DNA of 39,511 nt from Anaerolineaceae bacterium (GTDB lineage Bacteria; Chloroflexota; Anaerolineae; Anaerolineales; E44-bin32): the NCBI GenBank assembly GCA_020350285.1, contig CP070708.1, positions 2,122,644-2,162,154 on the forward strand, read 5' to 3'. The translations under genes and the position numbers were made by a program. How positions within the stretch are numbered: the stretch's first letter is position 1; the number at the start of each line of letters is the position of its first letter. Shown here piece by piece: positions 10,343-34,916 of this stretch. Below the pieces are notes generated by a model, which made no database searches, was not told where the DNA came from, and worked only from the letters and a program-made list of their open reading frames with translations.

Positions 10343-10702
10343 ATGTCCGCTGGACGTATAATCGCATACATTGCTGCAGCGATTCTGATTTTCTTCGGTG
10401 TAATGTTCATCTACGCGACTTTTTCTCCCACAGGTCAAACCGCATGGTTGATCATTGGGATCATCAGCGTAGGCATCGGTTTTGGTTTGATCTGGCTTGC
10501 AGGACGTCAAGCCAAACGGGAGGAAGCGGAACTTGTACAAAAGATCGAACTATCCGGCGATATTGATCTAGAAACTCTGACCTGCCGAAATTGTGGTGGC
10601 GCACTATCGCCAGATAATGTCAAGATGGTCGCTGGAGCACCAGTCGTATCCTGTCCGTATTGCAATACGTCTTACCAACTAACGGAAGAGCCTAAGTGGT
10701 GA
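10343..10702 (+). CDS. Two-TM protein with C-terminal zinc-ribbon-like domain
   Basis: A 119-residue protein with GGGAGG just upstream of its ATG. Two hydrophobic helices occur at residues ~6-28 and ~34-54, joined by a short loop, so both ends are probably cytoplasmic. A charged linker (GRQAKREEAELVQKIE) leads to a ribbon with CxxC pairs at Cys81/Cys84 (CRNCGG) and Cys104/Cys107 (CPYCNTSY), a pattern of structural Zn(II) sites. I do not recognise a named family. It is the first gene of a same-strand run ahead of the Cys-Ala-tailed membrane protein and two radical SAM-type proteins, so it may be an accessory or scaffold of that system (inference). Confidence 0.75.
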   Translation: MSAGRIIAYIAAAILIFFGVMFIYATFSPTGQTAWLIIGIISVGIGFGLIWLAGRQAKREEAELVQKIELSGDIDLETLTCRNCGGALSPDNVKMVAGAPVVSCPYCNTSYQLTEEPKW

Positions 10703-10751
10703 AAGGAATGAGATCAATCCCTCTCCATCACAACCAAACATGGAGTATGGT

Positions 10752-12449
10752 ATGAAACGCCTAATATTTCCGGTTCTACTCATTGTTGGCATTCTGCTCG
10801 TAGCGATCGCGCTCCCCGTGCGAGCTCAGACCTACTACTTCAGCGTAGACGAGTCGTATGTCCAAGTCTTTTGGGAGTCAGATGGCAGTATTCGGATCGA
10901 GTACATCATGGTTTTCACCAATGATCTATCTGCCTCACCGATGGAGTTCATTGACATCGGTATGCCCAACTACGAGTACGATCTATCGAGCATCTACGGC
11001 TGGATCAACGATCAACCCATCGGTCATGTGGAGCACTCTGAGTATGTCAGTCCTGGAGTTGAGTTTGGACTTCAATCCAATGCAATTCCACCTGGAGGTA
11101 CAGGTGAGTTCAAAGCCTCCATTGGAAGGGTTGAAGGAGTCGTATTTGATGATTACGATGACCCGAACTACGCCAGTGGTAAGTTCGCGCCCCACTGGTA
11201 CGACAAGCAGAATGTGTTCGGCAGAACGGATTTAACGGTAGTATTCCACCTCCCTCCAGGTGTTGAACCTGAGGAACCAAAATGGCATTCTGCGCCCAGT
11301 GGTTTTCCAGACGAGCCGGAAACGGGCTTCGATTCAGAGGGTCGAATTATTTATGCCTGGAGAAATCCTTCAGCGAACGCCTATACGCAGTATGTCTTCG
11401 GAGCGTCATTCCCTCGTAAATATGTCACTACAGATGCGATTCGCGAACCCGTACCTGAAGGTGAATTCTTCGAACCCAGCCGACCGAGCGATTTCAGTGG
11501 AGCGATCTTTGGCTTCCTCTGCGTCGGAGGGATCATACTCGCTTTCATAGGGTTCATCGCACTGGCGGTTCACAGTGATCGAAGCCGGAAGCTCGCGTAC
11601 TTACCTCCTAAGTTATCGATCGAGGGTCATGGTATCAAGCGCGGATTAACAGCCATTGAAGCCGCGATCTTGATGGAAACACCTCTCGATCGGGTGTTGA
11701 CGATGATCCTCTTCTCGACTATCAAAAAGAACGCCGCGCAGGTCGTTTCTGAAGACCCATTGAAGATCGAACGGATCACCCCTCAGCCAGTAGGTCTGAG
11801 AACATATGAGGTAGACTTTCTCAAAGCGATGATCGATGAGCAGCCTCGGAAACGAAGAGGGGCTCTCCAGGATCTCATGGTCAGTATGGTGAAATCTGTC
11901 CAAAAGAAGATGAAGGGCTTCAGTCTTAAAGAGACGAAGAATTATTACCAAGCGATCATGAAGAAAGCCTGGCAACAAGTCGAAGAAGCCGAAACACCCG
12001 AGGTTCGATCGAAACTCTATGATGAAGGCCTCGAATGGACCATGCTCGATCGTGACTTTGATGATCGAACTAGAAGGGTCTTTCGAACGGGTCCGGTCTA
12101 TGTTCCCGTGTGGTGGGGACGTTATAGTCCTTCATCGACACCTGTAACGACCACCACGAGAGCACCGAGTACAACCCCGAGTGCTCCTAGACCTAGCATC
12201 TCTCGACCGACACTACCCGGAGCCGAGTTCGCAGCCTCCATGGTCAATGGGGTGCAAAATGCGGCTTCCAATATGGTGTCCAATGTCGTCGGTTTCACCA
12301 ATGGAGTTACAAAGACTACCAACCCTCCACCGCCACCCTCCCGCTCTAGAGGTGGTTGGTCATCAGGTGCGGGTGGTTCCGGTTGCGCTTGCGCTTGTGC
12401 TTGCGCCTGTGCGGGTTGTGCGTGTGCTTGCGCCGGAGGCGGTCGGTGA
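10752..12449 (+). CDS. DUF2207-like membrane protein with (Cys-Ala)n C-terminal tail
   Basis: A 565-residue protein; the ATG at 10752 has GGAG six bases upstream, while an in-frame ATG at 10740 does not. A signal peptide (residues 1-26, ending PVRA|Q) leads to an extracytoplasmic beta-rich region (~27-245), one membrane helix (~249-273), then a cytoplasmic helical region (GLTAIEAAILMETPLDRVLTMILF...) and a Thr/Ser/Pro-rich linker. This topology resembles DUF2207 proteins. The last residues are GSG, five Cys-Ala pairs, Gly, three Cys-Ala pairs, then GGGR. Eight of nine cysteines lie in this tail (545-560); the ninth is in the membrane helix. The Cys and Ala codons vary, so the repeat is not a simple DNA microsatellite. 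The next gene encodes a radical SAM/SPASM enzyme overlapping by four bases, making this protein the likely substrate (inference). Confidence 0.82.
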   Translation: MKRLIFPVLLIVGILLVAIALPVRAQTYYFSVDESYVQVFWESDGSIRIEYIMVFTNDLSASPMEFIDIGMPNYEYDLSSIYGWINDQPIGHVEHSEYVSPGVEFGLQSNAIPPGGTGEFKASIGRVEGVVFDDYDDPNYASGKFAPHWYDKQNVFGRTDLTVVFHLPPGVEPEEPKWHSAPSGFPDEPETGFDSEGRIIYAWRNPSANAYTQYVFGASFPRKYVTTDAIREPVPEGEFFEPSRPSDFSGAIFGFLCVGGIILAFIGFIALAVHSDRSRKLAYLPPKLSIEGHGIKRGLTAIEAAILMETPLDRVLTMILFSTIKKNAAQVVSEDPLKIERITPQPVGLRTYEVDFLKAMIDEQPRKRRGALQDLMVSMVKSVQKKMKGFSLKETKNYYQAIMKKAWQQVEEAETPEVRSKLYDEGLEWTMLDRDFDDRTRRVFRTGPVYVPVWWGRYSPSSTPVTTTTRAPSTTPSAPRPSISRPTLPGAEFAASMVNGVQNAASNMVSNVVGFTNGVTKTTNPPPPPSRSRGGWSSGAGGSGCACACACACAGCACACAGGGR

Positions 12450-13819
12450 AAGAACCTTCCAGCCGGAACAAGGGCAACGAGGGAGCCCAGGTACAACCCG
12501 GTTTATATGGCTACACGCAGGAAGGCAATGGTGACCGGTCACAGATCCACCTGCGTGTCGAGGCCGATGGCCACGGATTACTCCTGATCAATGCAAACCG
12601 AGCCATACATCTCAACCCCACCGCTACCCTGATGGCCTGGTTGTTCCTTGAAGGCGTTCCACAAAAGGCCGCCATCAATGCGTTGAGGAAGCATTTCCAC
12701 GTCAGTGGCCGAACAGCCAAGAACGATTATCAAACCGTGCGGGATCAAATCGAACAACTCATCCACCCAGATGGTGTCTGTCCCGTCCACGATCTGGAGT
12801 TGGATCTCTTACCACCCTTCTCGGAAATCCCCAGCGCACCGTACCGTATGGACCTGGCACTCACATACCGTTGTAATGCCAACTGCTCCCACTGCTACAA
12901 TTCAAGATCTCGGGACTACCCCGAGATATCCACGGACCAATGGAAAACGGTGATCGATAAGCTTTGGCTGACTGGCGTGCCTCATATATGTTTCACGGGA
13001 GGTGAGTCCACTTTACGAAACGATCTCCCTGATCTTATCGCTCATGCGAAATCGACTGGCCAGATCAGTGGTCTGCTTACCAACGGTATTCGTCTCTCCG
13101 ACAGGAACTATATGATGAGTTTGGTGCGTGCTGGCCTCGATCACGTGCAAATCACGATCGAATCCCACATTCCAACGGTTCATGATCAAATGGTGGGCGC
13201 ACCTGGCGCATGGGAAAAGACTGTTCAAGGTATCCGAAATTGTCTTGAGAGCGAAGTCTTTGTAATGACCAACACCACGCTGTTGGCAAGTAACATCTCC
13301 CCCATTGGAGAGACCATCGATTTTCTTGCCGAATTAGGAGTCCCAACTGTTGGCTGCAACGCGTTGATCTATTCTGGCAAGGGGCGATCAGTCGGCACAG
13401 GTATCCAAGAGCATGAGCTCGGACCGATACTTGAGACCGTACGCCAGCATACCACCGCTAATGGTCAACGATTAATCTGGTACACACCAACACAGTACTG
13501 CCATTTTGATCCAGTTCAGATGCAGCTTGGAGTCAAAGGTTGCTCCGCCGCACGATACAACATGTGCATCGAACCAAATGGGGACGTGATACCTTGCCAA
13601 TCGTTTTACCAAACAGTCGGCAATATCCTTCAAGATCCATGGGATGAAATATGGAATCATGATCTCTCCCTATGGCTTCGTGAGCGTGAATACGTACCCG
13701 AAGAATGTCAGCGTTGTGCAATGCTCAATGAATGTGGGGGTGGTTGCCCTCTCACACTCATGCACCAACCAGATCAAATACCGATTAATCAAGTTCAGCT
13801 ACCCGATTCGACCTCATAG
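12446..13819 (+). CDS. Radical SAM/SPASM enzyme with N-terminal PqqD-like domain
   Basis: A 457-residue protein starting at GTG 12446, which overlaps the previous stop as GTGA and has GGAGG six bases upstream. Residues ~32-105 look like a PqqD/RiPP-recognition domain (HGLLLINANRAIHLNPTATL). The radical SAM core has DLALTYRCNANCSHCYN with Cys143, Cys147 and Cys150 binding the SAM [4Fe-4S] cluster, then FTGGESTLRNDL for SAM binding. The C-terminal SPASM region has Cys374 and Cys384 (IEPNGDVIPC) followed by CQRCAMLNECGGGC (Cys421, 424, 430, 434), which fits the CX2CX5CX3C signature for auxiliary clusters. Such enzymes install thioether or C-C links in peptides. The Cys-Ala tail encoded just upstream is the obvious candidate target. 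Confidence 0.93.
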   Translation: MKEPSSRNKGNEGAQVQPGLYGYTQEGNGDRSQIHLRVEADGHGLLLINANRAIHLNPTATLMAWLFLEGVPQKAAINALRKHFHVSGRTAKNDYQTVRDQIEQLIHPDGVCPVHDLELDLLPPFSEIPSAPYRMDLALTYRCNANCSHCYNSRSRDYPEISTDQWKTVIDKLWLTGVPHICFTGGESTLRNDLPDLIAHAKSTGQISGLLTNGIRLSDRNYMMSLVRAGLDHVQITIESHIPTVHDQMVGAPGAWEKTVQGIRNCLESEVFVMTNTTLLASNISPIGETIDFLAELGVPTVGCNALIYSGKGRSVGTGIQEHELGPILETVRQHTTANGQRLIWYTPTQYCHFDPVQMQLGVKGCSAARYNMCIEPNGDVIPCQSFYQTVGNILQDPWDEIWNHDLSLWLREREYVPEECQRCAMLNECGGGCPLTLMHQPDQIPINQVQLPDSTS

Positions 13820-13840: not shown

Positions 13841-14998
13841 ATGTCATCTTTTCTATCCCGTCTTCTACCCCCCTATGAAATCCCTCGACCACTAAAAGCC
13901 GGTATGTATCACTGGATGGCGCCCGATGACGCCCCCATTCCGTATCGACTGCATTTAAGAGTCGAGGATGATGAAACCAGCGTGCTGATTGTCAACGCCG
14001 CCACGGTTGTCCACCTCAATCCGACAGCCACCGCGCACGCACTTCAGATCATGGAAGGTGCTTCGGAGGAAGAGGCAGCCCAAGCAGTCGCAAGACGATA
14101 CCGGGTTGGTCGTCGTAAAGCATTACAGGATCAGAGGGAACTGCGAGAACAGATCCTCACGCTCGCAACCATCCCTGATGTTGATCCAGTGGTCTTCCTG
14201 GGCATGGATCGAGCAGAGCCATTTGGTGAGCACCCTTCTGCGCCATATCGGCTCGATCTCGCGTTGACCTACCGCTGCGATGCCGAAGGGGAACTCGATC
14301 CATTGGCGCGCAAAAGGGTAGACCGAGAACTTTCAGGAGAAGAGTGGAAGAAGATCCTTTCAACAGCTTGGGAAGTTGGAATCCCTCATGTCACCTTTAC
14401 CGGTGGCGAACCAACGCTTCGAGAGGACTTACGCGATCTCATCGAACATGCCGAGGCACAGGGTCAGGTCACCGGATTGCTCACTGATGGCAGGCGCCTC
14501 TCAGATGCAGACTACTTGGAGACGCTCTCACAGGCAGGGCTCGACCATATTCTTATAACATTAGTAGAGGGAGATCCTTCAAGCCGAAAAGGTCTCGAGA
14601 ACGCCATCGCTTCAGATATATATACAGCAGTTCATTTGACGCTCTCCCCAGGCCCGATTGGTAAATCACAAAAGATCCTCCAGGATTTGGTCGAGTTAGG
14701 TGTACCAGCAGTATCACTCTCCTCAAGCGGAACAACGGATGAGCTATTCGTGGAGTTATCCTCAGCGCGTGATCATGCTGCAGATCTACACCTCGATCTA
14801 ATCTGGGATATACCCGTTCCCTACTCCTCCACCAACCCCATTGCACTTGAACTTGATACGATACCTGTCGGTGCTGGGCGCGCTTGGTTGTATGTCGAGC
14901 CGGACGGGGATGTCCTTCCCACTCAGGGTCTGGATCAAATTCTGGGCAATCTCCTTCGAGATCCATGGTCCGAGATCTGGGCGAAAGCACAAAGCTGA
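13841..14998 (+). CDS. Degenerate radical SAM/SPASM paralogue (probable pseudoenzyme) with PqqD-like domain
   Basis: A 385-residue protein aligning end to end with its upstream neighbour: PqqD-like region (TSVLIVNAATVVHLNPTATA), SAPYRLDLALTYRC, FTGGEPTLREDLRDL, VEPDGDVLPTQ, GNLLRDPWSEIW. The radical SAM triad is destroyed: after Cys146 the next positions read DAEGELD, and from that Cys to the next conserved Trp the spacing matches the neighbour with no gap. All SPASM cysteines are gone and the protein stops right after the first SPASM half. Cys146 is the only cysteine in the whole protein. The frame is intact with a good ribosome-binding site (GAAGGAAG), so it is a maintained gene, not decay. 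It probably binds peptide or SAM as a partner of the active enzyme, but cannot be a radical SAM catalyst. Confidence 0.9.
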   Translation: MSSFLSRLLPPYEIPRPLKAGMYHWMAPDDAPIPYRLHLRVEDDETSVLIVNAATVVHLNPTATAHALQIMEGASEEEAAQAVARRYRVGRRKALQDQRELREQILTLATIPDVDPVVFLGMDRAEPFGEHPSAPYRLDLALTYRCDAEGELDPLARKRVDRELSGEEWKKILSTAWEVGIPHVTFTGGEPTLREDLRDLIEHAEAQGQVTGLLTDGRRLSDADYLETLSQAGLDHILITLVEGDPSSRKGLENAIASDIYTAVHLTLSPGPIGKSQKILQDLVELGVPAVSLSSSGTTDELFVELSSARDHAADLHLDLIWDIPVPYSSTNPIALELDTIPVGAGRAWLYVEPDGDVLPTQGLDQILGNLLRDPWSEIWAKAQS

Positions 14999-15232: not shown

Positions 15233-15280
15233 TTGAGAATCTCCAACCTAAACTTGTATGTACAGGCAAGTTCTCTTGAA

Positions 15281-16048
15281 ATGAAACCATACAACTATCC
15301 ACCCTCCGAGTGGCATGATAGGTATCTCGTTCAAGCGGGATGGACAAAGTCGCTGCGTGAACGAATTTACCAGTTATCCAACCTGCGAAACGCCAACCGA
15401 ATCATGGAGATAGGATCTGGTACTGGCGTGATCATATCTGAGATCGCGGACCAGTCTCATGGTCAGACCTACGGCCTGGACATCGATCACGAAGCAAATA
15501 TCTTTTCCCGCAGTCTTGATTCGGGGACCCGCTATATCACAGGTGATGGCCGTACTCTCCCCTTCCCCAGCGCATCCTTCGATGTCACGCTTTGTCATTT
15601 CCTCCTGATGTGGGTACCCGACCCAGAGACTGTAATTGGTGAAATGCGGCGCGTCACTAAGCGAGAAGGATGGATCTTGGCGCTTGCTGAACCGGATTAT
15701 GGTGGTCGGATTGACTATCCACCAGAATTCGATGAGATTGGGGAGCTACAAATCCAGTCTTTATTCGATCAAGGAGCCGATCCGATGATCGGACGTAGGC
15801 TTAAGGCTCTCTTCTCAAGCGTTGGTCTGGTCGACATTCAAGTGGGTGTGCTGAGTGGAGAATGGACAGGACCCCCAACTCCAGAGGAACTCGAATCCGA
15901 ATGGCGCACCATCGCCGCGGACCTTCAACACAAACTCTCAAAGGAAGCTCTTGAAGACTTCCGTGAAGCTGAAATGGAGGCCTGGCGCTCAGGAAGTCGT
16001 ATTCTCTTCATCCCCACATTTTACGCGATCGGTCGAGTTCCCTCTTAG
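15281..16048 (+). CDS. Class I SAM-dependent methyltransferase
   Basis: A 255-residue Rossmann methyltransferase of the UbiE/MenG-like Methyltransf_11 type. Motif I is IMEIGSGTGV (residues ~42-51), the acidic ribose-binding residue lies in GLDIDH, and the post-motif segment GDGRTLPFPSASFDVTLCHFLLMWVPDPE is typical. The substrate is not evident. I start at ATG 15281, which has only a weak ribosome-binding site; a TTG at 15233 would extend it into the palindrome and is unlikely. It lies 282 bases after the radical SAM pair on the same strand, so membership of that system is possible but not shown. Confidence 0.85.
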   Translation: MKPYNYPPSEWHDRYLVQAGWTKSLRERIYQLSNLRNANRIMEIGSGTGVIISEIADQSHGQTYGLDIDHEANIFSRSLDSGTRYITGDGRTLPFPSASFDVTLCHFLLMWVPDPETVIGEMRRVTKREGWILALAEPDYGGRIDYPPEFDEIGELQIQSLFDQGADPMIGRRLKALFSSVGLVDIQVGVLSGEWTGPPTPEELESEWRTIAADLQHKLSKEALEDFREAEMEAWRSGSRILFIPTFYAIGRVPS

Positions 16049-19028: not shown

Positions 19029-20252
19029 ATGACAGGACCAATGGCACTCGATACCTCCAAGGAATTCCTTAATCAATTGATCACCGCTACACCGGATGGG
19101 GAACGAATCCGATTATGTCTCCAATGCGGAGCTTGCAGCGGAGCGTGTCCGTTTGGCTTTGTGATGAAGTTCCCCCCTCATGGAATGATCGCAGCCTTAC
19201 GGGCGGGTATGCTTGACACTTTGGTGGACACCGATACGTCTTGGATGTGCGTCTCGTGCTACGCTTGCACCCAGGTTTGTCCGGCGAAGATCCCTGTCAC
19301 AGCTGGCCTGACGACACGGATAAAAGAGGAGATGCTGCTTGCCGGTAACGTCCCCTCCGAGCTTCAGGATGCCCTCGAGAAAGCCCAGCGATATGATAAT
19401 CCTCTGGGTGAGTCCCCACGGAAGCGAGCTGAATGGGCGAGCGGATTTGAGCCCGAGATCCCGATTATGGCCAAAGCCAAACGCCCGGTGGACGTACTGT
19501 GGTTTGTCGGCGATTATCCCTCCTATCACGCAGGGGTTATCCCGTCAACGAAAGCCATGGCAAAAATTCTCCAAGCCCTGGATGTTGATTTTGGGATCCT
19601 GGGTCCCGAGGAGGTCAGCGATGGCGATTCGGTTCGGCTAGCGGGTGAGAGTGGATTATTTGAGATGCTAGCCGAGAAGAATGCCAAGGCGTTCGATAAA
19701 TATGAATTCAACGAGATCATCACGACCGACCCACACGCCTTCAACGCCATTAAGAACGAATACCCCAACCTCGAGATCTCTTATCCAGTCCGCCATTACA
19801 CACAATTCCTCGCCGAGCGGCTCGATCAGCTTGAAAAGTTGATGAAAAAGAGTATTGAGGCGACTGTGGCGTTCCACGATCCCTGCTATTTAGGTCGGGT
19901 CAATGGGATATTCGAAGAACCGCGACAGTTGCTGCAAGCCATTCCTGGGGTGGAGCTCGTGGAGATGGCTCACCAGCGCGAAAACAGCTTATGTTGCGGA
20001 GGCGGTGGTGGTGGGATGTGGTTGGATGGTTTCCAATGGGAAAAGGCCGAAGTCAGAATCTCTGAGTGGCGGGTGCGTGAAGCCATCTCTGCAGTTGGGA
20101 CGGATGAAAACGGCACACGTATTCTGGCTGTCGCTTGCCCATACGAACCGCCGAGGTTTGAAGACGCAACTAAAACAGTTCCCGGAGCTGCGGGGTTAAT
20201 TGTGAAGGATATCGTTGAACTGATCGCAGAAGCCATGGGCTTGGAGGGGTGA
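19029..20252 (+). CDS. Soluble HdrD-like Fe-S protein (two ferredoxin clusters plus CCG domains)
   Basis: A 407-residue cytosolic protein. Residues 30-40 (CLQCGACSGAC) and 74-84 (CVSCYACTQVC) hold two [4Fe-4S] motifs of the HdrC/GlpC type. Two CCG-like domains follow. The first is degenerate: its expected cysteines are replaced by TTDPHAFNAIKNEYPN. The second keeps HDPCYLGR, LCCGGGGGG and ACPYEP, so one non-cubane or similar cluster could form, although the last Cys of the usual CPxC is absent. Its C-terminal two thirds are paralogous to the end of the membrane protein four genes on (shared WFVGDYxSYHA, KNEYP, IVKD(I/L)). Start at 19029 has GGAGGAG. It begins the etf unit and probably passes electrons to or from Etf. 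Confidence 0.85.
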   Translation: MTGPMALDTSKEFLNQLITATPDGERIRLCLQCGACSGACPFGFVMKFPPHGMIAALRAGMLDTLVDTDTSWMCVSCYACTQVCPAKIPVTAGLTTRIKEEMLLAGNVPSELQDALEKAQRYDNPLGESPRKRAEWASGFEPEIPIMAKAKRPVDVLWFVGDYPSYHAGVIPSTKAMAKILQALDVDFGILGPEEVSDGDSVRLAGESGLFEMLAEKNAKAFDKYEFNEIITTDPHAFNAIKNEYPNLEISYPVRHYTQFLAERLDQLEKLMKKSIEATVAFHDPCYLGRVNGIFEEPRQLLQAIPGVELVEMAHQRENSLCCGGGGGGMWLDGFQWEKAEVRISEWRVREAISAVGTDENGTRILAVACPYEPPRFEDATKTVPGAAGLIVKDIVELIAEAMGLEG

Positions 20253-20256
20253 GAAG

Positions 20257-21021
20257 ATGAACATTGTGGTGCTGGTCAAGCTTGTACCAGATCTCGTCGA
20301 AGAACTTGAGATCGATTCGAGCGGGGCGACACTAGATACAACTTTCATGCGTATGATCATCAATGAGCCAGACGAGCACGCCCTCGAACAGGCGATCATC
20401 CTCAAGGAACGTGAGGGCGGAGAGGTCACGGTTCTGGGACCCGCGATTGAGGACATCGATGGCGTCCTATTTACGGCATTTGCCAAAGGCTCAGATCGCC
20501 TGATCAAGCTTGTAGACGGGTTTGAACTCGAGGTGAACAATCATGCCCTGGCACGTGCTTTTACCTCGGTAATTCGTGAACTCAATCCTGATCTCGTTCT
20601 AACAGGTGTCCAAGCCCATAACGATCTCGATGGATCGTTGGGACCTTTAGTGGCGGAATACCTTGGAATGTCCTACGTCGGCTACGTATCTGGCGTGACC
20701 TCATCCGGAGATAAGCTTACCGTGCGGAAAGAATATCCGGGTGGGCTGATCGGCGAAATGGAGGTCGCAATACCAGCTGTTCTTGGTATCCAGTCAGCGG
20801 AACAACCGCCACGCTATGTGGCCATCAGCAAGGTCCGTCAGGCGATGAAAACCGCGACCATTGATGAACAAACACTTACAGAATTGGATCCCAGCGGCGG
20901 TCCAACGGTCTCTCAGATGTTCCAACCGCAGGTAGGTGAACGGGCGGAGATGATCGAAGGGGACATCGACCAAATTGCGGCCAAACTCGTTGAATTATTC
21001 GGGGATTTAGGCGTCGTCTGA
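20257..21021 (+). CDS. etfB: Electron transfer flavoprotein beta subunit
   Basis: A 254-residue EtfB of normal length beginning MNIVVLVKLVPD, with NEPDEHALEQAIILKE and the signature region DLVLTGVQAHNDLDGSLGPLVAEYLGMSYV. It carries the AMP or second flavin site and pairs with EtfA to accept electrons from acyl-CoA dehydrogenases. It starts four bases after the HdrD-like gene and ends 31 bases before etfA. Whether this Etf bifurcates cannot be settled by eye; its genetic link to a membrane DUF224-type oxidoreductase suggests a quinone-reducing role. Confidence 0.95.
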   Translation: MNIVVLVKLVPDLVEELEIDSSGATLDTTFMRMIINEPDEHALEQAIILKEREGGEVTVLGPAIEDIDGVLFTAFAKGSDRLIKLVDGFELEVNNHALARAFTSVIRELNPDLVLTGVQAHNDLDGSLGPLVAEYLGMSYVGYVSGVTSSGDKLTVRKEYPGGLIGEMEVAIPAVLGIQSAEQPPRYVAISKVRQAMKTATIDEQTLTELDPSGGPTVSQMFQPQVGERAEMIEGDIDQIAAKLVELFGDLGVV

Positions 21022-21052
21022 TCCCGGGAATCAATCGTCCACGGAGGTAGCG

Positions 21053-22018
21053 ATGGGTGACAACATCTATGTCGTCATTGAACACCTGCAAGGCCAGGTG
21101 AGCGAAATTTCTTACGTAATGTTAGCTGCGGGTCGCGCTCTAGCTAGTGGAATTGGTGGAGAACTGGTCGCGATACTGCTAGGCCACCAGGCACAGAACC
21201 TCGCCGGGGATTTAGCTGCGGATCGGGTCTTGTATATGGACGACCCTGCGCTGGCTGAATTTACGCCCGATGCCTATCAGCTGGCTTTAGCTGAGTTAAT
21301 TAAGACGGATACACCGCGCGCGGTCTTGCTAGGGGACACATCCGTTGGTGCGGAAGTAGCTGGTGCCCTTTCCGTTCGCTTGGAAATTCCCCTGGTCAGT
21401 CGCTGCAGCAGTGTCCATGCAAAAGAGGGAACCCCTAAGTTCGTCAGTCAGATCTGTGGTGGCAAGATCATGGCCGAGGGCGATTTACCAGGTCCTACAG
21501 CTTTGGTGACGATGGTCCCTGGTGACTTCAAGGCAGAAGAAGGACAAAGTGACCAACCAGCCGAGGTGACCTCGATCCCGGCCCCGTCATTTGACGATCT
21601 TAAGGTTACGCTGAAGCAATACATCGAACCTGAAGTTGGAGATGTAGACATCTCCACTGAGCCGATCCTGATCGCTGTGGGGCGTGGAATTCAACAAGAA
21701 GCCAATCTAGAGCTGGCTGAGGAATTAGCGGCAGCACTGGGTGGCACGATATGCGCCTCCCGTCCTGTGGTGGATCAAGGCTGGTTACCCATCAGCAGAC
21801 TAGTGGGTAAATCAGGCAAGAGTGTCAAACCAAAATTATTCCTCGCGATCGGCATCAGCGGTGCTCCTGAGCACGTTGAAGCCGTGACGGGTAGCGAGAC
21901 AATCATCGCCATCAACACCGATCCAGCAGCACCAATCTTCGATATTGCGAAGTATGGAGCTAATGTAGACCTATTTGAATTGGTACCGGCCTTAACCGAA
22001 CAACTGCAGGGTTCTTAG
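21053..22018 (+). CDS. etfA: Electron transfer flavoprotein alpha subunit
   Basis: A 321-residue EtfA with GGAGG seven bases before the ATG. The N-terminal domain holds VVIEHLQGQVSEISYVMLAAGRALA, and residues ~195-321 are the FAD domain with ASRPVVDQGWLPISRLVGKSG, LFLAIGISGAPEHVEA and IIAINTDPAAPIFDIAKYG, all expected contacts for FAD. It partners with EtfB. It is followed at 22 bases by the membrane cytochrome b/HdrD-like fusion, the probable next electron carrier. Confidence 0.95.
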   Translation: MGDNIYVVIEHLQGQVSEISYVMLAAGRALASGIGGELVAILLGHQAQNLAGDLAADRVLYMDDPALAEFTPDAYQLALAELIKTDTPRAVLLGDTSVGAEVAGALSVRLEIPLVSRCSSVHAKEGTPKFVSQICGGKIMAEGDLPGPTALVTMVPGDFKAEEGQSDQPAEVTSIPAPSFDDLKVTLKQYIEPEVGDVDISTEPILIAVGRGIQQEANLELAEELAAALGGTICASRPVVDQGWLPISRLVGKSGKSVKPKLFLAIGISGAPEHVEAVTGSETIIAINTDPAAPIFDIAKYGANVDLFELVPALTEQLQGS

Positions 22019-22040
22019 TAGTTAGCGGACGGGAGGCAGC

Positions 22041-24026
22041 ATGCCAATCCGGGAGACCTTCTGGAACATCCCTCATTGGGCGGAGATCGGGCAGTATGTA
22101 TTAGGACTGCTGACATTCTTGATTCTCGTGTATGGGATATGGCGTCACATACGACGATGGAAATTGGACAAATCAGTGCTCAGGCCTGGTCAATGGGGTA
22201 AACGCCTTACCAATCTCTTTACCCAAGCTCTGGTTCAATTACGAACGTTAAAGGATATCTATCCAGGCATTATGCACTTTACCATCTTCTGGGGGACCAT
22301 AGCCCTTCTCATTGGAACAGCGTTGGCCACCATCGACTGGGATGTGACCCACCTACTCTTCGATTTTCAGTTCCTTGTCGGTGTTGTTTACAACCTTTTT
22401 GAGGTCATCCTTGATATCTTTGGATTGTTGTTAATCGTTGGCATCGCGCTGGCTATCTACCGGCGATATATTTCCCGCCCTGCTCGTTTACAGGATTTCC
22501 CTGAACCGGGCCTCGGCACAGAAGATGCTTTTATCCTCGTCATGCTGACACTGATTGCCATTTCAGGCTATCTGGTGGAGGGGCTTCGTATCGCGGTCAC
22601 CCAACCCGAATGGGCAGCCTGGTCACCAGTGGGCAACGTATTGGCATCGCTCTTCATCGCGATCGGTGATCCAACCAATCAGACGTTGCATCTTGTCCTA
22701 TGGATCTTCCACATCGTGATCTCCTTCGTAATGATTGCAGCTATCCCCTACACCAAACTATTTCACCTGTTAGCAGCACCAGTGAATATCTTCTTTAGCT
22801 CTTTAGAACCGGTCGGAGCGCTCGCCCCAGCGCGTTATACCAGCGGTCCGGGTGTAGAGAAGATGAGTGATTTCACCTGGAACCAGATCCTTAATTTCGA
22901 AAGCTGTACTCGCTGTGGTCGCTGTCAGGACCAATGCCCGGCTCATATCAGCGGTGCAGCTTTATCCCCGAGGGATGTCATCATCAAGTTAGGGATGCAG
23001 GTCTGGGAACCGGAGAACGGAAAATCGCTACACGGTGATGTGATCTCCGCAGAAGAGTTGTGGGCTTGTACAACTTGCCTGGCTTGTGTCGATGTCTGTC
23101 CAGTATTCATCAACCAACTGTGGTCAATTGTGGACATGCGTCGCTTTCTGGTTGATGAAGGACAGATTGACGCTATGCTACAAGACGCGCTAGCTAATTT
23201 GGGGCGCTATGGCAACTCCTTTGGTCAATCAGAGCGGATGCGTGCCAAGTGGACCCAACCGATCGAACCTAAGATCAAAGATGCCCGTAAAGAACCGGTG
23301 GATTACCTCTGGTTCGTTGGGGACTATGCTTCATACCATGCCAGTCTCACGGATATCACTCGCATGACGAGCGAGGTATTCAAAAAAGCCGGTCTGGATT
23401 ACGGCATCCTCTATGAAGGCGAAAAGAATTCCGGCAATGATGCACGCCGAGCTGGTGAAGAGGGTCTCTTCGAAATGATGGTCGAGGAGAATGTGGCAAC
23501 ATTCGAAAGTTGTGAGTTCAAAGCCATCGTTACCACCGATCCCCATACGTATAACACCTTGAAGAATGAATACCCAGCCGAAGTGAATGGGGATAAACCG
23601 ATCCTGCATTATTCTGAACTGCTGGACCAACTGATTACGTCCGGTAAACTTGAGTTGAGCAAGAAACTTAACTACAAGGTCACATATCACGATCCCTGCT
23701 ACTTGGGCCGCTACAACAAGATCTTTGACGCACCACGGCGTGTAATCGAGGCCACTGGATGCACCATTGTCGAGATGCCTCGCCATCGCGATCAAGCCCT
23801 CTGTTGCGGTGCGGGTGGCGGACGGATCTGGATGGACGAGATCGAAGTCGAGGAGCGACCCAGCGAAGCGCGCATCCATGAAGCCGTAGGGTTGGGCGAT
23901 GTGCAGGTTTTCGCCGTCACATGTCCCAAGGACGTCACCATGTATCAAGATGCGGTTAAGACCACAGGACATGAGGATCGTCTTGTCGTCAAGGATCTGA
24001 TCGAATTGGTTCACGAGGCGCTATGA
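22041..24026 (+). CDS. Membrane Etf:menaquinone oxidoreductase-type protein (cytochrome b + HdrD-like fusion, DUF224)
   Basis: A 661-residue fusion with GGGAGG ahead of the ATG. The N-terminal ~270 residues have about six membrane helices of the NarI/HdrE cytochrome b type with helix histidines (for example His79, His217, His224) that could bind heme b. Next come two [4Fe-4S] motifs (Cys289/292/295/299 and Cys343/346/349/353), then a degenerate CCG domain (TTDPHTYNTLKNEYP) and a second CCG domain (HDPCYLGR, LCCGAGGG, TCPKD). DUF224 proteins of this layout beside etfAB act as Etf:(methyl)menaquinone oxidoreductases in syntrophic fatty-acid oxidisers. The same role is proposed here by homology and context. 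Confidence 0.88.
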   Translation: MPIRETFWNIPHWAEIGQYVLGLLTFLILVYGIWRHIRRWKLDKSVLRPGQWGKRLTNLFTQALVQLRTLKDIYPGIMHFTIFWGTIALLIGTALATIDWDVTHLLFDFQFLVGVVYNLFEVILDIFGLLLIVGIALAIYRRYISRPARLQDFPEPGLGTEDAFILVMLTLIAISGYLVEGLRIAVTQPEWAAWSPVGNVLASLFIAIGDPTNQTLHLVLWIFHIVISFVMIAAIPYTKLFHLLAAPVNIFFSSLEPVGALAPARYTSGPGVEKMSDFTWNQILNFESCTRCGRCQDQCPAHISGAALSPRDVIIKLGMQVWEPENGKSLHGDVISAEELWACTTCLACVDVCPVFINQLWSIVDMRRFLVDEGQIDAMLQDALANLGRYGNSFGQSERMRAKWTQPIEPKIKDARKEPVDYLWFVGDYASYHASLTDITRMTSEVFKKAGLDYGILYEGEKNSGNDARRAGEEGLFEMMVEENVATFESCEFKAIVTTDPHTYNTLKNEYPAEVNGDKPILHYSELLDQLITSGKLELSKKLNYKVTYHDPCYLGRYNKIFDAPRRVIEATGCTIVEMPRHRDQALCCGAGGGRIWMDEIEVEERPSEARIHEAVGLGDVQVFAVTCPKDVTMYQDAVKTTGHEDRLVVKDLIELVHEAL

Positions 24027-24044
24027 GGGAGCAGGCAACCACCG

Positions 24045-24518
24045 ATGACACCTGAAACCGTGCTCCAGGCATTGAAGACAATAGAATTCACCAAGGATCT
24101 GGAGCAACAGCATTTAGAGAAACTTGCCACGATCGCCACTCATGTGACTTTCTCTGAAGGTTCGACCATCTTCAGGGAAGGAGACGCAAGTGAGTTAGTT
24201 TACTTGATCGAGAAAGGGCAAGTATCGCTTGTGACACAGGTGCCTGGTCATGGTCAAGTAACGATCATCACAATCGGTCCGGGTCAGCTCCTGGGTTGGT
24301 CTTCTTTGTTTCCTCCCAAAACCAAAACAGCTGGAGCACAGACTTTAGAGCCCACAAAGGTTATCGCCATCAACGCCACCCAACTTCGAGAACTGTGCCA
24401 GACAGATCCCAGCCTGGGAAATAGCATCATGTGGCGTGTAGCAGAGGTCATCTCAGATCGACTTCGAGCTGCCCGTGTTCAGTATTTGGATATTTTTGGA
24501 CCGACCAGCAAGAGATGA
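24045..24518 (+). CDS. Stand-alone cyclic-nucleotide-binding-fold protein (no DNA-binding domain)
   Basis: A 157-residue protein with a single Crp-type cNMP-binding domain: EGSTIFREGDASELVYLIEKGQVSLV, ITIGPGQLLGWSSLFPPKTKTAGAQTLEPTKVIAI, then a C-helix. There is no helix-turn-helix after it. The phosphate-binding cassette does not match the canonical cAMP motif (usual GE.A and RxA residues are not evident), so the ligand is uncertain. It ends the etf/membrane oxidoreductase unit, 18 bases after it, and a related protein ends the Hdr-Mvh unit. It may tune activity of the electron-transfer complex rather than transcription (inference). Confidence 0.82.
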   Translation: MTPETVLQALKTIEFTKDLEQQHLEKLATIATHVTFSEGSTIFREGDASELVYLIEKGQVSLVTQVPGHGQVTIITIGPGQLLGWSSLFPPKTKTAGAQTLEPTKVIAINATQLRELCQTDPSLGNSIMWRVAEVISDRLRAARVQYLDIFGPTSKR

Positions 24519-24593
24519 GCCTGGTGAAGAATGGGCTCAAACTTATGTGTAAACAATTTTGGAGATTGTGCCAGTAATAGCTAAAGGTTACCG

Positions 24594-26579
24594 ATGAGTG
24601 ACTGGTTTGCAAGACTGGGTGATGAAGGTAGATTCCGCTTTAGGATACCGATCGCCACAAAGCTTATCCTGAGCTTTCTCCTAATCATCACTCTCATAAG
24701 TGCTGTTTTTGTCGTTGTGGGGATTAGGCTTATTGGTGATCGTATCGTTGCTGAGGCACAGGAGAAGGTACGTTACGATCTCAATGCAGCGCGAGAAATT
24801 TATTTAAACAAATTAGGGCATATTGACAATGTCGTTCGATTTTCTGCAGACAGGTTTTTCTTAATCAATTCCCTACTATCCGGAAACATTGGATTGGCCA
24901 CTGACGAACTGACGAAGATCAAAAATCGGGAAGGGTTGGATATATTAACCGTCACTGACGCATCTGGAAAGGTCCTATTAAGAACCAACAACGTAGATTA
25001 TTTCCAAGATGATCAAAGTGACGATGAACTCGTCAGTGCGGTTTTATTCCAAGGAGAACCTGTCTCTGCCACATCTATCGTGCCCGATCATGAATTGAGC
25101 AGGGAGTCTCCAGTCCTTGCCGAGATGGCATGTTGCGAGGTCATTGACACACCATTAGCAAGGGTTAGGGATGAAACGGAAATAACTGATGGCATGATGT
25201 TGAAAGCAGCGGCGCCGGTATTTGATTATGAAAACAACTTGATCGGAGTGTTATACGGCGGTGTCTTACTCAACAAAAACTTCGAGATCGTGGACAAGAT
25301 CAAACAAACAGTCTTCGAAGATGTCATTTACGATGAAAGGGACCTCGGGACAGCGACTATCTTTCAAGACGATGTGAGGATATCGACCAATGTGAGAAAC
25401 ACGGACGGTTCAAGAGCCATCGGAACACGTGTTTCGGAGGAAGTTTTTATCCAGGTCGTAAAAGAGGGTAAACCTTGGACTGGGCGAGCCTACGTAGTCA
25501 ACGATTGGTACATCACGGCTTATGAACCCATCCGGAACATTAACAACGAGATCATCGGCATCCTCTATGTCGGGGAACTAGAACAGAAATATGTTGACAT
25601 TCAGAGGCAGACCGTCCTTGCCTTCTTGGCGATCACCCTTTTAGGTGCTCTGGCTGCGATGAGTTTAGCCTATGTAATTTCACGAAGAATATCGATACCC
25701 ATCAGGGAATTGGCATCCGCATCGAGGGAGATCGAACAAGGCAACTTGGATGCTGAAGTTGAGATTGTTGGAAGCGATGAATTAGGGGAACTGGCGGAAA
25801 CGTTTAATGCCATGGCATCCGCGTTGAAAGAGAGGGACAAGCAATTAATGGAGTTCACCCAAAGCAAAATCATGGAGTCTGAGAGGTTGGCCCTCATTGG
25901 TCAGATAGCTGCCAATGTAGCGCATGAATTAAATAATCCACTCCAGGGGATCGTCACATACTCGCACCTTCTCTTGGAAAAGATGCCCAGCGAGAATTCA
26001 GCGAGGGAATCATTAAATAAGATCGTCATCCAAGCTAATCGATGCAGAGACATTATTCGAGGATTGTTAGATTTTTCACGGCAGAGAAAACCCGATAAGA
26101 CAATTTGCGACATCAATTCAGTCTTGGATGAATGTGTCGCCCTAATTGAGAATCAGGCTTTATTCCATAACATCGAAATCACGAAGCAGTTCGAGGAAGA
26201 CCTCCCGATGGTCGTGGTAGATCCTTCACAAATGCAGCAAGTCTTCATGAATATGATCATCAATGCTGCAGAGGCCATGGAGGATAGCGGGTATTTGGAA
26301 TTGGTTACCAGGTTCGTTCCGGACGAAGAACTCATAGCAATAGAAATCACCGATTCAGGACAAGGGATCTCCGAAGAAAACGTAGAGAAGCTTTTTGATC
26401 CCTTCTTTACAACAAAAGAGGTGGGACACGGAACTGGTCTGGGATTGGCCATTAGCTACGGAATCATCAAGGAACATGAGGGAACCATTTCAGTTGATAC
26501 CGAACTCGGACATGGAACCACCTTTCTCATCCAACTGCCCATGAAAACAGTCGAAGAGGGTTCAGATGGTAGAAGATAA
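24594..26579 (+). CDS. Membrane histidine kinase with extracytoplasmic Cache domain and HAMP
   Basis: A 661-residue sensor kinase. Membrane helix 1 is at ~22-45, a long Cache-type sensor domain spans ~46-340 (ending GRAYVVNDWYITAYEPIRNINNEIIGILYVG), helix 2 is at ~342-364, HAMP at ~365-417, and the dimerisation domain has ANVAHELNNPLQGIVTY with phospho-acceptor His444. The ATPase domain carries the N box MNMIINAAEAM, DSGQGIS, LFDPFFTTKEVGHGTGLGL. A short linker of 75 bases follows the cNMP-fold gene. The C-terminus overlaps the next kinase gene by 14 bases, so the two are translationally linked. The ligand is unknown. Confidence 0.95.
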   Translation: MSDWFARLGDEGRFRFRIPIATKLILSFLLIITLISAVFVVVGIRLIGDRIVAEAQEKVRYDLNAAREIYLNKLGHIDNVVRFSADRFFLINSLLSGNIGLATDELTKIKNREGLDILTVTDASGKVLLRTNNVDYFQDDQSDDELVSAVLFQGEPVSATSIVPDHELSRESPVLAEMACCEVIDTPLARVRDETEITDGMMLKAAAPVFDYENNLIGVLYGGVLLNKNFEIVDKIKQTVFEDVIYDERDLGTATIFQDDVRISTNVRNTDGSRAIGTRVSEEVFIQVVKEGKPWTGRAYVVNDWYITAYEPIRNINNEIIGILYVGELEQKYVDIQRQTVLAFLAITLLGALAAMSLAYVISRRISIPIRELASASREIEQGNLDAEVEIVGSDELGELAETFNAMASALKERDKQLMEFTQSKIMESERLALIGQIAANVAHELNNPLQGIVTYSHLLLEKMPSENSARESLNKIVIQANRCRDIIRGLLDFSRQRKPDKTICDINSVLDECVALIENQALFHNIEITKQFEEDLPMVVVDPSQMQQVFMNMIINAAEAMEDSGYLELVTRFVPDEELIAIEITDSGQGISEENVEKLFDPFFTTKEVGHGTGLGLAISYGIIKEHEGTISVDTELGHGTTFLIQLPMKTVEEGSDGRR

Positions 26580-27678
26580 GTCCAAAATACTCATCATCGA
26601 TGATGAAGAAGTGGTTTTGGATTCCTGCACCCAAATCCTGGAAGGTGGCCCATATCAAGTCGCAACGGCTATGGATGGCACCTTTGGGTTGGAGCTTGTC
26701 CAGGAGTTCCATCCAGATGTCGTCTTTGTGGATCTAAAAATGCCGGGGATCCAAGGGTTTGAGGTGCTCGACAGAATCCATAGTTTCGATCCCACCATCG
26801 TGGCCATTGTCATCACAGGTTATGCAACCGTGAATTCGGCTGTTGAAGCGATCAAAAAAGGAGCTTACGATTTTCTTCCGAAACCTTTCACCCCCGACGA
26901 ATTTCGCGTGATCACACGCAGGGGTCTTGAAAGAAGGAAATTGGTAACGGAGACAACTGCGTTGAGAAGAGAAAGGGAGATGTTGAGGGATCAATTTGCC
27001 GCCATCCTCTCCCATGAACTCAAGTCTCCGATCAGCGCCGTTCAACAGAATCTGTTCGCATTGGAATCCCAATTATCTGATCAACTGGATGAGGAACAAA
27101 GCAACCGTATCACACGCATGAAGTCTTCCATTGATGATCTCTTGAAACTGATCCATACCTGGCTGCGCGTCGTTTCAGCGGATGCCGATATTCAGAAGAT
27201 CCAGGAGGATTTTCAACCGACATCGATTGAGTCTGTGATCACCAAAGCGATCGAGGGCGTCCAAACTCAATCTACCCGGAAAGACATCGAGATCCAAATT
27301 AAAATCGAGGAAACACTAAGGCCCACCCATGGAGACGAAATCACGCTTGTAGAAGCCTTGGTGAATCTACTAAGCAATGCGATCAAATATTCACGCATGG
27401 GAAGTAAGATTTTCGTTACCGCAGAAGATAAAGATGATGAAATTCTGATCTCTGTGGCAGACAGGGGTGTGGGTATTTCTGAAGAAGATCTGCCTTTCAT
27501 CTTTGGGGATTTCTATGTCGGAGAAGCAAGCCCCGATGGAGAGAGAGGCAGCGGATTGGGATTAGGTATTACCAAACGTATCGTTGAAGCCCACAATGGA
27601 TCGATATCCGTAGATAGCGCTTTAGGTAAAGGGAGCACTTTTGTGATCCATTTGCCTTTGGTGACGCCAAATCGTTAA
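26566..27678 (+). CDS. Hybrid receiver-histidine kinase (soluble)
   Basis: A 370-residue cytosolic protein with an N-terminal receiver domain (phospho-acceptor Asp56 in FVDLKMPG, Thr84, Lys106 in LPKPF) followed by a HisKA domain with His150 in AAILSHELKSPISAV and an ATPase domain (LVNLLSNAIKYS, DRGVGIS, GSGLGLGITKRIV). The receiver resembles NtrC-type receivers (AIVITGYATVNSAVEAIKKGAYDFLPKPF). It probably receives phosphate from the preceding Cache kinase and passes it to the following receiver. A small CCCGC/GCGGG hairpin follows at 27685-27700. Confidence 0.93.
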   Translation: MVEDKSKILIIDDEEVVLDSCTQILEGGPYQVATAMDGTFGLELVQEFHPDVVFVDLKMPGIQGFEVLDRIHSFDPTIVAIVITGYATVNSAVEAIKKGAYDFLPKPFTPDEFRVITRRGLERRKLVTETTALRREREMLRDQFAAILSHELKSPISAVQQNLFALESQLSDQLDEEQSNRITRMKSSIDDLLKLIHTWLRVVSADADIQKIQEDFQPTSIESVITKAIEGVQTQSTRKDIEIQIKIEETLRPTHGDEITLVEALVNLLSNAIKYSRMGSKIFVTAEDKDDEILISVADRGVGISEEDLPFIFGDFYVGEASPDGERGSGLGLGITKRIVEAHNGSISVDSALGKGSTFVIHLPLVTPNR

Positions 27679-27733
27679 GATGAACCCGCCAAGGAGCGGG
27701 TATCTCAGAAAACAATAAGGAAGGAGTTCTCAA

Positions 27734-28156
27734 GTGACCGAAGGAAAGAAACTATTAATCATCGACGACGACCCCGATTTTGTGGAAGGGATCCTCGCTA
27801 TCCTTGAACCGGCTGGGTACGATGTCGAGACGGCCTACAATCCCAAGGATGGCTTCGATGCTTTGGAATCAAAGCATTATGACTTGCTCCTACTCGACAT
27901 CATGATGGGGCGCGGAGCAGAAGGGGTCATGATCGCTCGAAAGATGAGAAAGGACCCCAAACTAAGGCAAATACCCGTGCTGATCATCACAGGCATTCGA
28001 GAGCAGATCGCTTATCTCTTCCCCGGTGGGCCTGTCCACCCTCATTTTGTTGATGTGGACGAACTGGTCGAGAAACCAGTTGAGCCAGAACTTCTCTTAG
28101 ATCGGGTGAGTGCCTTAATTGAAGCTTCAGAAGAAAGAAAAGCGGAAGGTAGCTAG
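27734..28156 (+). CDS. Single-domain response regulator
   Basis: A 140-residue lone receiver with GTG start at 27734, supported by AAGGAG seven bases upstream. Asp12/Asp13 lead to phospho-acceptor Asp55 in LLLLDIMMGRGAEG, then LIITGI and a conserved Lys in VEKPVEP. After the fourth strand it has a longer loop (REQIAYLFPGGPVHPHFVDVDELVEKP) than a typical CheY. No output domain exists, so it must act by protein contact. It closes the kinase block and lies directly upstream of hdrC; action on Hdr-Mvh or on the kinases is possible. Confidence 0.9.
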   Translation: MTEGKKLLIIDDDPDFVEGILAILEPAGYDVETAYNPKDGFDALESKHYDLLLLDIMMGRGAEGVMIARKMRKDPKLRQIPVLIITGIREQIAYLFPGGPVHPHFVDVDELVEKPVEPELLLDRVSALIEASEERKAEGS

Positions 28157-28300
28157 CGATTAAACATAGTTGATCCGAGGGTGCCCACGCTTGTGTCCCT
28201 CAGATAGCACTTGGGATCAGGATGCGAGATGCGGTCCCCTTGGATCAGGTTGCGACATTACGATTGAGGTTGTACTTGTCGAATCTTAGGAGGACACAAT
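28157..28300 (+). promoter_or_regulatory. Structured spacer/leader ahead of hdrC
   Basis: The gap holds an outer stem TTGATCC/GGATCAG around an inner stem GAGGG/CCCTC (about 28169-28220), then two diverged direct copies beginning GGATCAGG(A/T)TGCGA. It ends in AGGAGG before the hdrC ATG. The pattern suggests a folded mRNA leader or operator repeats; I do not recognise a known riboswitch. Confidence 0.35.
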
Positions 28301-28858
28301 ATGGTCAAACCTTCATTCAGCGATGAGATCGCTAATCTACTACATGCATCACACGGTAATCCACTCATAACTTGCATTCAGTGCGGGACTTGCTCTGGTA
28401 CATGCCCGGCGGTTGACTACATGGATCATACACCGCGGCGCATTATAGGCATGATCAGAGCCAATCTCAAAGATGAGGTGCTTAACAGTAACACTTTCTG
28501 GTACTGCGCTTCTTGTTATCACTGTACCGTGAGATGCCCAGCCCAAATCGATATCGCTGAAACGATGTATGCGTTGAAGCGATACTCCATTTGGAAGCGC
28601 GTTCATCAGGAGGGACTGGTCGGTCCGACATTCTCCGAAACCTTTGTCAAAACGATCCTGCGGAGTGGAAGATCGTTCGAACCTATTCTGGCGACCTCCT
28701 ACCTCTTTAGTGCTGGAGTTCGAGAGTTAATTCAGGAAGGTGTTACTGCCACCAAGATGATGCTAAAGGGAAGGTTGCCTATGTTACCGCCCAGGATCAA
28801 AAGGCTCGATAACTTCAAGCGAATGGTTAGTCGGGTTATTCCTTTGGAGGCCGAATGA
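28301..28858 (+). CDS. hdrC: Heterodisulfide reductase-type subunit C
   Basis: A 185-residue HdrC with two [4Fe-4S] motifs: CIQCGTCSGTCPAVDYMDHTP and CASCYHCTVRCPAQIDI. TPRRIIGMIR between them is typical of HdrC. It is an electron-wire subunit linking HdrA to HdrB. AGGAGG precedes the ATG. Its stop overlaps the hdrB start as ATGA, so the two are translated together. The gene order hdrCBA-mvhDGA matches complexes known from methanogens and several anaerobic bacteria. Confidence 0.93.
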   Translation: MVKPSFSDEIANLLHASHGNPLITCIQCGTCSGTCPAVDYMDHTPRRIIGMIRANLKDEVLNSNTFWYCASCYHCTVRCPAQIDIAETMYALKRYSIWKRVHQEGLVGPTFSETFVKTILRSGRSFEPILATSYLFSAGVRELIQEGVTATKMMLKGRLPMLPPRIKRLDNFKRMVSRVIPLEAE

Positions 28859-29727: not shown

Positions 29728-29794
29728 AGCGTGCGATAAGCATCCCTAAGTACGTCATGCCTCTACTAGGGGAATTACGAAAGGAAGGGAATCT

Positions 29795-31822: not shown

Positions 31823-31837
31823 TGGAGGAAGCGACCT

Positions 31838-33327: not shown

Positions 33328-33346
33328 GAGAAAGAGGGAGTGGACC

Positions 33347-34813: not shown

Positions 34814-34821
34814 CGAAAGGT

Positions 34822-34900
34822 AAATGGTAAAAGGGATTAGGGATCAGGGACAAGGGATTAGGAAATAGAAGAAGACCTGATCCCTGATCCCTTACCATTT
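34822..34900. repeat. Long imperfect hairpin between mvhA and the maturation protease
   Basis: The left arm at 34822-34848 (AAATGGTAA then AGGGAT copies) pairs with the right arm at 34876-34900 (CCTGATCCCTGATCCC then TTACCATTT). The loop is 27 bases. Both arms contain repeated GGGATCAG-type units. There is no T-run after it, so it is more likely a dispersed repeat or mRNA-processing/stability hairpin than a terminator. Confidence 0.75.
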
Positions 34901-34916
34901 CAAGTTCGGTTCTGAT

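Follow-up and report, generated by a model that had tools for sequence, protein, structure and literature searches.

The window, meaning the whole 39,511-nucleotide stretch of DNA analysed here, carries on its forward strand a gene for a membrane protein with a cysteine-rich C-terminus, and the next gene encodes a radical SAM/SPASM enzyme (Table 1). The product of ORF 10740-12449 (+) ends in GCACACACACAGCACACAGGGR, and its C-terminal stretch is organised as GGWSSGAGGSG-CACACACACA-G-CACACA-GGGR-stop. A sequence-only reading of this DNA had described five Cys-Ala pairs, a Gly, three further Cys-Ala pairs and GGGR at this C-terminus, and the positions that it gave, 12384-12434, coincide exactly with the Cys-Ala part (residues 549-565); GGGR and the stop codon occupy 12435-12449. 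It had also remarked that nearly all cysteines of the protein lie in the tail, which is true of eight of nine (residues 549, 551, 553, 555, 557, 560, 562 and 564), the ninth being Cys261 inside TM2. The two genes are closely packed, and the GTG start of the enzyme gene at 12446 overlaps the TGA stop of the tail gene (GTGA).

Table 1. Features of the tail-bearing protein, the radical SAM enzyme and their operon in the window
Feature	Position	Strand	Basis or remark
Small protein with two predicted TM helices and C-terminal CxxC...CxxC zinc-ribbon-like part	10343..10702	+	conserved operon member
Proposed substrate, tail-bearing membrane protein, 569 aa	10740..12449	+	profile-profile match to DUF2207-type family, E 2.3e-31
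Extracytoplasmic beta domain, residues 30-227	10827..11420	+	AlphaFold pLDDT ~97; Z 17.4 to 6ezn_A
TM2, residues 254-282, predicted cytosolic C-terminus after it	11499..11585	+	hydropathy, flanking charges, model
Pre-tail helical hairpin, residues 494-527	12219..12320	+	pLDDT ~91; semi-conserved LPGxDFAASxVxGxQ...FTxxVTxxTNPxP
Invariant tail CACACACACAGCACACAGGGR, residues 549-569	12384..12446	+	sequence, alignment of homologues
GGAGG within GGGR codons, likely ribosome-binding site of radical SAM gene 6 nt downstream	12435..12439	+	sequence
Enzyme of radical SAM/SPASM type, 457 aa, RRE (PqqD-like) domain at N-terminus, start codon GTG	12446..13819	+	
RRE/PqqD domain of enzyme, residues 19-106	12500..12763	+	Pfam PqqD, model, SkfB/SuiB alignments starting there
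Pseudo-radical-SAM protein lacking cluster Cys, with radical SAM fold and PqqD-like domain	13841..14998	+	
Class I SAM methyltransferase	15233..16048	+	conserved operon member; ORF start assigned mechanically, real start may lie within

From the N-terminus, the tail protein consists of a signal-type TM1 (residues ~6-24), an outer beta domain, TM2 (~254-282), a helical cytosolic domain, the helical hairpin 494-527, and then a Gly/Ser linker and the tail, which are modelled as disordered (mean pLDDT 85.7 overall, <50 in the tail). Net negative charge on the N-side of TM2 and positive charge on its C-side suggest that the tail lies in the cytosol, and the cytosolic placement proposed by the sequence-only reading thus agrees with TM1, TM2 and the flanking charges, as a prediction. 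Structure comparison of the outer domain with the yeast oligosaccharyltransferase subunit 6ezn_A aligned 184 residues at 2.7 A; its fold is like the beta domain of ribophorin I/OST1-type subunits, and it also resembles the N-domain of M1 aminopeptidases (Z ~12.5). Comparison of the cytosolic helical domain yielded no match giving an assignment. The Pfam profile search returned no match for the membrane protein, and ScpB and CNP1 were rejected as noise (E 0.2). The hairpin before the tail is a possible recognition element for the radical SAM enzyme; the pre-tail helices are swapped for other sequence in Hodarchaeota and in the clade whose tails have four Cys-Ala units after the Gly.

The enzyme has the features of an RRE-containing radical SAM/SPASM peptide maturase. 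Its CxxxCxxC motif (C143/C147/C150) is kept in 57/57 aligned homologues, as are SPASM cysteines 366, 384, 421, 424, 430 and 434, and PF13186 (SPASM) is matched in all 57. Six of the seven canonical SPASM cysteines are therefore invariant, the C-terminal seventh is absent in the window, and Cys352 is an extra invariant one. For the N-terminal RRE, Pfam PqqD is matched in 42 of the 57 homologues (best 4.7e-9), and the model of the enzyme (pLDDT 89.9) begins with four strands followed by three helices, which is the RRE arrangement. Foldseek and comparisons of structure and sequence placed the RRE-bearing RiPP maturases SkfB, SuiB and CteB among its nearest solved structures; the top match is SkfB (Z 27.8, 346 residues, 3.8 A), tied with SuiB (Z 27.7, 376-378 residues, 3.7 A), and both alignments start in or include the RRE region. 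Hence, the earlier description of a radical SAM/SPASM enzyme with a PqqD-like domain beside the tail gene is supported for both domains. Against the named NCBIfam radical SAM families the enzyme scored far under every curated cut-off, the best being NirJ2 (130 vs 500 bits), with PqqE at 128 vs 381 and ACGX at 64 vs 400, and membership of NirJ2, PqqE, AhbC/D, GeoRSP or ACGX was rejected on these scores. Apart from the general Radical_SAM and SPASM domains, no library family reaches its cut-off for either the tail protein or the enzyme.

Across the collected set, the tail has the general form (CA)2-5-G-(CA)3-4-GGGR. The 156 tails are encoded by 156 different DNA sequences and fall into six peptide forms, namely (CA)4G(CA)3GGGR (84), (CA)5G(CA)3GGGR (20, the form of the window), (CA)3G(CA)4GGGR (19), (CA)3G(CA)3GGGR (18), (CA)2G(CA)4GGGR (13) and (CA)2G(CA)3GGGR (2), and in 155/156 proteins the tail is the exact C-terminus. 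Most of these loci were gathered via the tail pattern, and the exact peptide is thus partly ascertained; a set gathered with a query from which the tail had been removed is free of this. That query found homologues in 55 of the 249 genomes of the window's class, and wherever the C-terminus was readable the closer homologues had the identical tail and the most distant ones another Cys tail instead. In the 91 homologues sharing <70% identity, no position of the tail's final ten residues varies, and conservation along the protein is highest in the tail; the Gly/Ser linker preceding it is variable. Bodies of the tail proteins have a median identity of 46% to that of the window, and the tail stays invariant where they have diverged to 27-58%.

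Codon usage in these tails bears directly on how the repeat arose. Both Cys codons, all four of Ala, all four of Gly and all six of Arg are used, and codon diversity together with a fixed peptide indicates selection on the tail peptide and not on DNA. Moreover, a reversed control pattern gave 0 matches, against 28 of 400 genomes for the true tail pattern. Judged from these comparisons, a chance origin of the tail is excluded. The repetitive sequence and the GGAGG within the GGGR codons could be taken to mean that the repeat is a functionless low-complexity DNA expansion, or that it persists solely to provide a ribosome-binding site for the gene that follows. However, expansion and low-complexity chance are ruled out by the codon diversity, and a ribosome-binding site is ruled out as the reason for GGGR, as both the tail and its GGGR are retained in families with the enzyme gene upstream or unlinked on another contig; we consider the probability of this explanation practically negligible. 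A C-terminal sorting or membrane-anchor signal, composed of a weakly hydrophobic run and a terminal Arg, would agree with the hydropathy of residues 549-567 (up to 1.75) and with the flexible Gly/Ser linker before them. Hydrophobic signals tolerate substitution, though, and in the tail-less-query set no Cys or Ala was swapped for another hydrophobic residue; such a signal would also leave the radical SAM enzyme unexplained, and is very unlikely.

Scanning the full genome collection for the DNA pattern of the tail gave at least 119 loci. Of the tail ORFs listed, 112/119 match the window protein by BLAST, and for six the fetched stretch holds too little of the ORF for comparison; the Hungatella ORF is distantly related, having the outer domain and lacking the cytosolic one. 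A clear cognate radical SAM gene lies within the fetched 2-8 kb stretch at 93 of the 119 listed loci, a count that omits seven loci where this stretch holds only the pseudo-enzyme. In Hungatella hathewayi the radical SAM gene is directly adjacent to the tail gene, just outside the fetched stretch, and whole-genome search of the other 25 genomes found the enzyme elsewhere in 22 (16/18 and 6/7). A cognate enzyme is thus present in 116/119 genomes of the tail loci listed; the three tails without an enzyme found in the genome (L128, L135, L149) all come from fragmented assemblies with contigs <7 kb. In some families the tail gene and enzyme gene are non-adjacent, with the enzyme upstream or on another contig.

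The 249 genomes of the window's class gave the same association, with tail and enzyme in 59, tail only in 0 and enzyme only in six (Fisher p ~1e-50, phylogeny ignored). These 59 comprise 30 genomes with the Cys-Ala tail and 29 with the (ACHS)n tail described below, and the enzyme was found by search in 58 and read directly in one (G118). In five of the six enzyme-only genomes the gene is at a contig edge, G005 being the exception. Five close relatives of 97-99% completeness (G111, G130, G179, G192, G223) have neither tail nor enzyme. Distances between tail-less bodies and between enzymes are correlated at 34 loci (Mantel r 0.91, 0/2000 permutations), and tails with four Cys-Ala units after the Gly belong to a single enzyme clade (support 99/98), but both partly reflect shared inheritance of neighbours, and co-inheritance of neighbouring genes alone can give high values, which weakens them. 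The sequence-only reading had proposed that the tail is a modification target carried on a full-size membrane protein, and had named missing co-occurrence with radical SAM genes in relatives as the observation against it; the comparison was run and co-occurrence was found, in 116/119 listed and 59/59 class genomes. On this genomic evidence, the enzyme-substrate pairing of the tail with the adjacent radical SAM enzyme is well supported.

About 80 of the 119 tail loci listed are from Chloroflexota and 39 from other lineages, mostly as metagenome-assembled genomes. The latter include Acidobacteriota/Aminicenantes, Planctomycetota, Armatimonadota, Fermentibacterota, Coatesbacteria, Edwardsbacteria, Zixibacteria, Hydrogenedentota, Chrysiogenales, Actinomycetota, Deltaproteobacteria and Bacillota, and also six Asgard archaeal loci. 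Contamination is an unlikely source of the Asgard loci, since they are six independent records from four named lineages, and in four of them the adjacent enzyme is 41-46% identical.

Other members of the operon are conserved over part of this range. Homologues of the small zinc-ribbon protein (10343-10702) were found in 70/119 tail loci listed, with weak matches in the archaeal L090 and L137, and the methyltransferase in 61/119, archaeal ones included, from Chloroflexota to Asgard archaea. The 13841-14998 protein matches PF04055 and has a radical SAM-like domain without cluster Cys: no conserved Fe-S Cys is present among 23 homologues and the SPASM Cys are lost too, with TGGE kept. Such a pseudo-radical-SAM protein is conserved in Chloroflexota systems. 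HExxH peptidase-like exported proteins are encoded within some operons (L046:13938-14975, L047:5368-6435, L051:3168-5363); few operons have such a gene, and it is absent from the window. Downstream in the window, a block of genes (19029-35881) resembles, by eye only, subunits of heterodisulfide reductase, electron-transfer flavoprotein and hydrogenase.

These operons also allow the tail to be considered as an unmodified metal-binding thiol cluster, metallothionein-like with C-x-C spacing, in which case the radical SAM operon would be separate or metal-dependent. Alternating Cys is a classic ligand pattern for soft metals, and a zinc-ribbon TM protein is located within the operon. However, the Ala spacers vary as little as the Cys, a constancy for which metal binding has no need, and the co-occurrence of the tail with an RRE-type peptide maturase is near-obligate. 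We hence regard a bare thiol cluster as quite unlikely.

Further Cys tails occur on related scaffolds. Distant homologues of DUF2207/TIGR04222-like type bear an (ACHS)n tail, a nearly invariant 50-residue Cys/His/Ser stretch of ACHS units with close variants; their family aligns with that of the window over most of the length (profile E 2.3e-31), and one (ACHS)n homologue scores above the Pfam threshold for DUF2207. In 25/29 (ACHS)n genomes a radical SAM gene with ~35% identity follows <=250 nt downstream, a contig end intervenes in three, and the gene is unlinked in one. In several of the (ACHS)n loci (L041, L042, L043, L045, L213-L242) a ~390-aa coiled-coil protein follows. Lachnospiraceae have a (CA)n-GGGRAGC[ST]xKDFY tail on a membrane protein in 9/150 genomes, and in 9/9 the tail gene is directly behind the gene of a related radical SAM enzyme; these loci (L282-L290) make up a third tail class, and some have extra CVHSSC stretches resembling (ACHS)n tails. 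In genome G048, a 1143-aa open frame (L252:978-4406) encodes a Ser/Thr kinase and AAA ATPase with the last part of the cytosolic domain, the linker and a CA tail at its end, and adjoins a radical SAM gene; the fusion may be genuine or may stem from an error of assembly.

According to our model, the neighbouring enzyme has the tail as its dedicated substrate, and the tail is oxidised on the membrane protein and is kept there, a reading to which we assign a probability of roughly 0.65. The 569-aa protein would be embedded in the cell membrane, its C-terminus facing the cytosol, and the RRE of the enzyme would dock on it near the pre-tail helices, probably joined by the pseudo-radical-SAM protein with its own RRE. 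In RRE/SPASM enzymes the RRE binds one part of the substrate and another part is modified (PMC8326336). The radical SAM centre would then oxidise the Cys-Ala tail, and that the tail is modified at all seems very probable. Most likely, intrachain thioethers would form between Cys sulfurs and carbons in other residues of the tail, each with a loss of 2 Da; the odds for this chemistry are about even. Cys thioethers are the product of several RRE/SPASM enzymes, and SkfB tolerates Ala instead of the Met acceptor (PMC8326336).

The single Gly could form the natural turn of a tail hairpin. Folding the tail at this Gly would set a Cys opposite an Ala at every pairing in 156/156 tails, which makes a ladder of Cys-to-Ala links geometrically feasible; this pairing follows automatically from the (CA)nG(CA)m pattern, yet the pattern itself is the conserved feature. 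We hold this particular cross-link pattern only tentatively and think it rather doubtful. The modified tail would stay attached and serve the protein, e.g. as an element that responds to redox state or metal and is coupled to the outer domain. Lasting attachment appears somewhat favoured, and the operons have no universally conserved peptidase, which suggests that the tail remains attached.

Alternatively, the enzyme may modify the tail without thioethers, through epimerisation, a C-C linkage or a Cys-derived group that is methylated later, and the tail may be cut off as a free peptide or cofactor. The chemistry of SPASM/RRE enzymes is varied (PMC8326336), and both the conserved methyltransferase and the HExxH peptidase-like proteins of some operons would suit such a course. 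The tail contains only Cys, Ala, Gly and one Arg, though, which makes Cys the obvious reactive partner, and the peptidase-like gene is confined to a few operons and missing from the window. We thus find this course unlikely, if less so than a metal cluster. Returning to the oxidised and retained tail, a bolder version would be that a class of TM proteins in bacteria and Asgard archaea carries a permanent, radically cross-linked Cys-Ala hairpin with one Gly turn as a cytosolic redox or metal switch, that the tail cassette is modular and also used on a kinase, and that three Cys tails evolved on one scaffold family, each beside a related enzyme. This is speculative, and we would sooner doubt than expect it.

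If the main reading is true, radical SAM peptide chemistry extends beyond small peptides to membrane proteins of full size, which it provides with a modified tail in the cytosol, and such a system spans many phyla and Asgard archaea. Some of the DUF2207/TIGR04222 superfamily, so far uncharacterised, would thereby gain a function, and the repeated appearance of Cys tails in it next to unrelated oxidising enzymes (MNIO, radical SAM) would be accounted for. Given such a regular substrate, a single mass spectrum may suffice to read the chemistry, and producers are available in culture (Ornatilinea, Bellilinea, Levilinea, Hungatella). In the open-licence literature we found neither the tail peptide nor a link of TIGR04222/DUF2207 to radical SAM enzymes; earlier notice of the tail elsewhere is possible.

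Several known systems resemble parts of this one. The NCBIfam radical SAM/SPASM families, including NirJ2, PqqE, AhbC/D, GeoRSP and the ACGX system, belong to the same superfamily as the window enzyme, and the ACGX system targets Cys-repeat peptides. DUF2207 (PF09972) is related through the (ACHS)n homologue above the Pfam cut-off and the family alignment given above; the window protein itself has no match at the PF09972 gathering score, its relation to a family with PF09972 members being through profile comparison, and it differs in its single TM after the outer domain and in its Cys tail. Maturation of sactipeptides and ranthipeptides (SkfB, CteB, ruminococcin C RumMC2) likewise combines RRE, radical SAM and SPASM/twitch domains with a nearby Cys-containing substrate. 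However, those substrates are small free peptides bearing a removable leader, whereas the candidate here is the end of a 569-aa protein with two TM helices.

The nearest precedent is found in TIGR04222 membrane proteins, full-size proteins with a Cys tail that were proposed as MNIO substrates (PMC12452194), and the caution of the sequence-only reading that Gly/Cys-rich tails had been noticed before was well placed. Both systems have a full-size membrane protein, a Gly/Ser-rich Cys-containing low-complexity tail and a peptide-modifying enzyme alongside. By profile, TIGR04222 matches weakly in 9/65 members of the tail family (best 7.8e-5, in the cytosolic domain, a remote relation), and the (ACHS)n type comes closer (1e-9, score 38.3 vs cut-off 43); the window protein has no TIGR04222 hit, and a search of the five operon proteins gave no match to any MNIO family. 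TIGR04222 tails are of variable Ser/Gly/Cys composition and predicted to be periplasmic (PMC12452194), whereas here the tail is invariant, alternates Cys and Ala, is predicted on the cytosolic side and accompanies a radical SAM/SPASM/RRE enzyme. Thus, a Cys-tailed membrane protein as maturase target has already been proposed, and the present system is a new, large variant with a different enzyme class.
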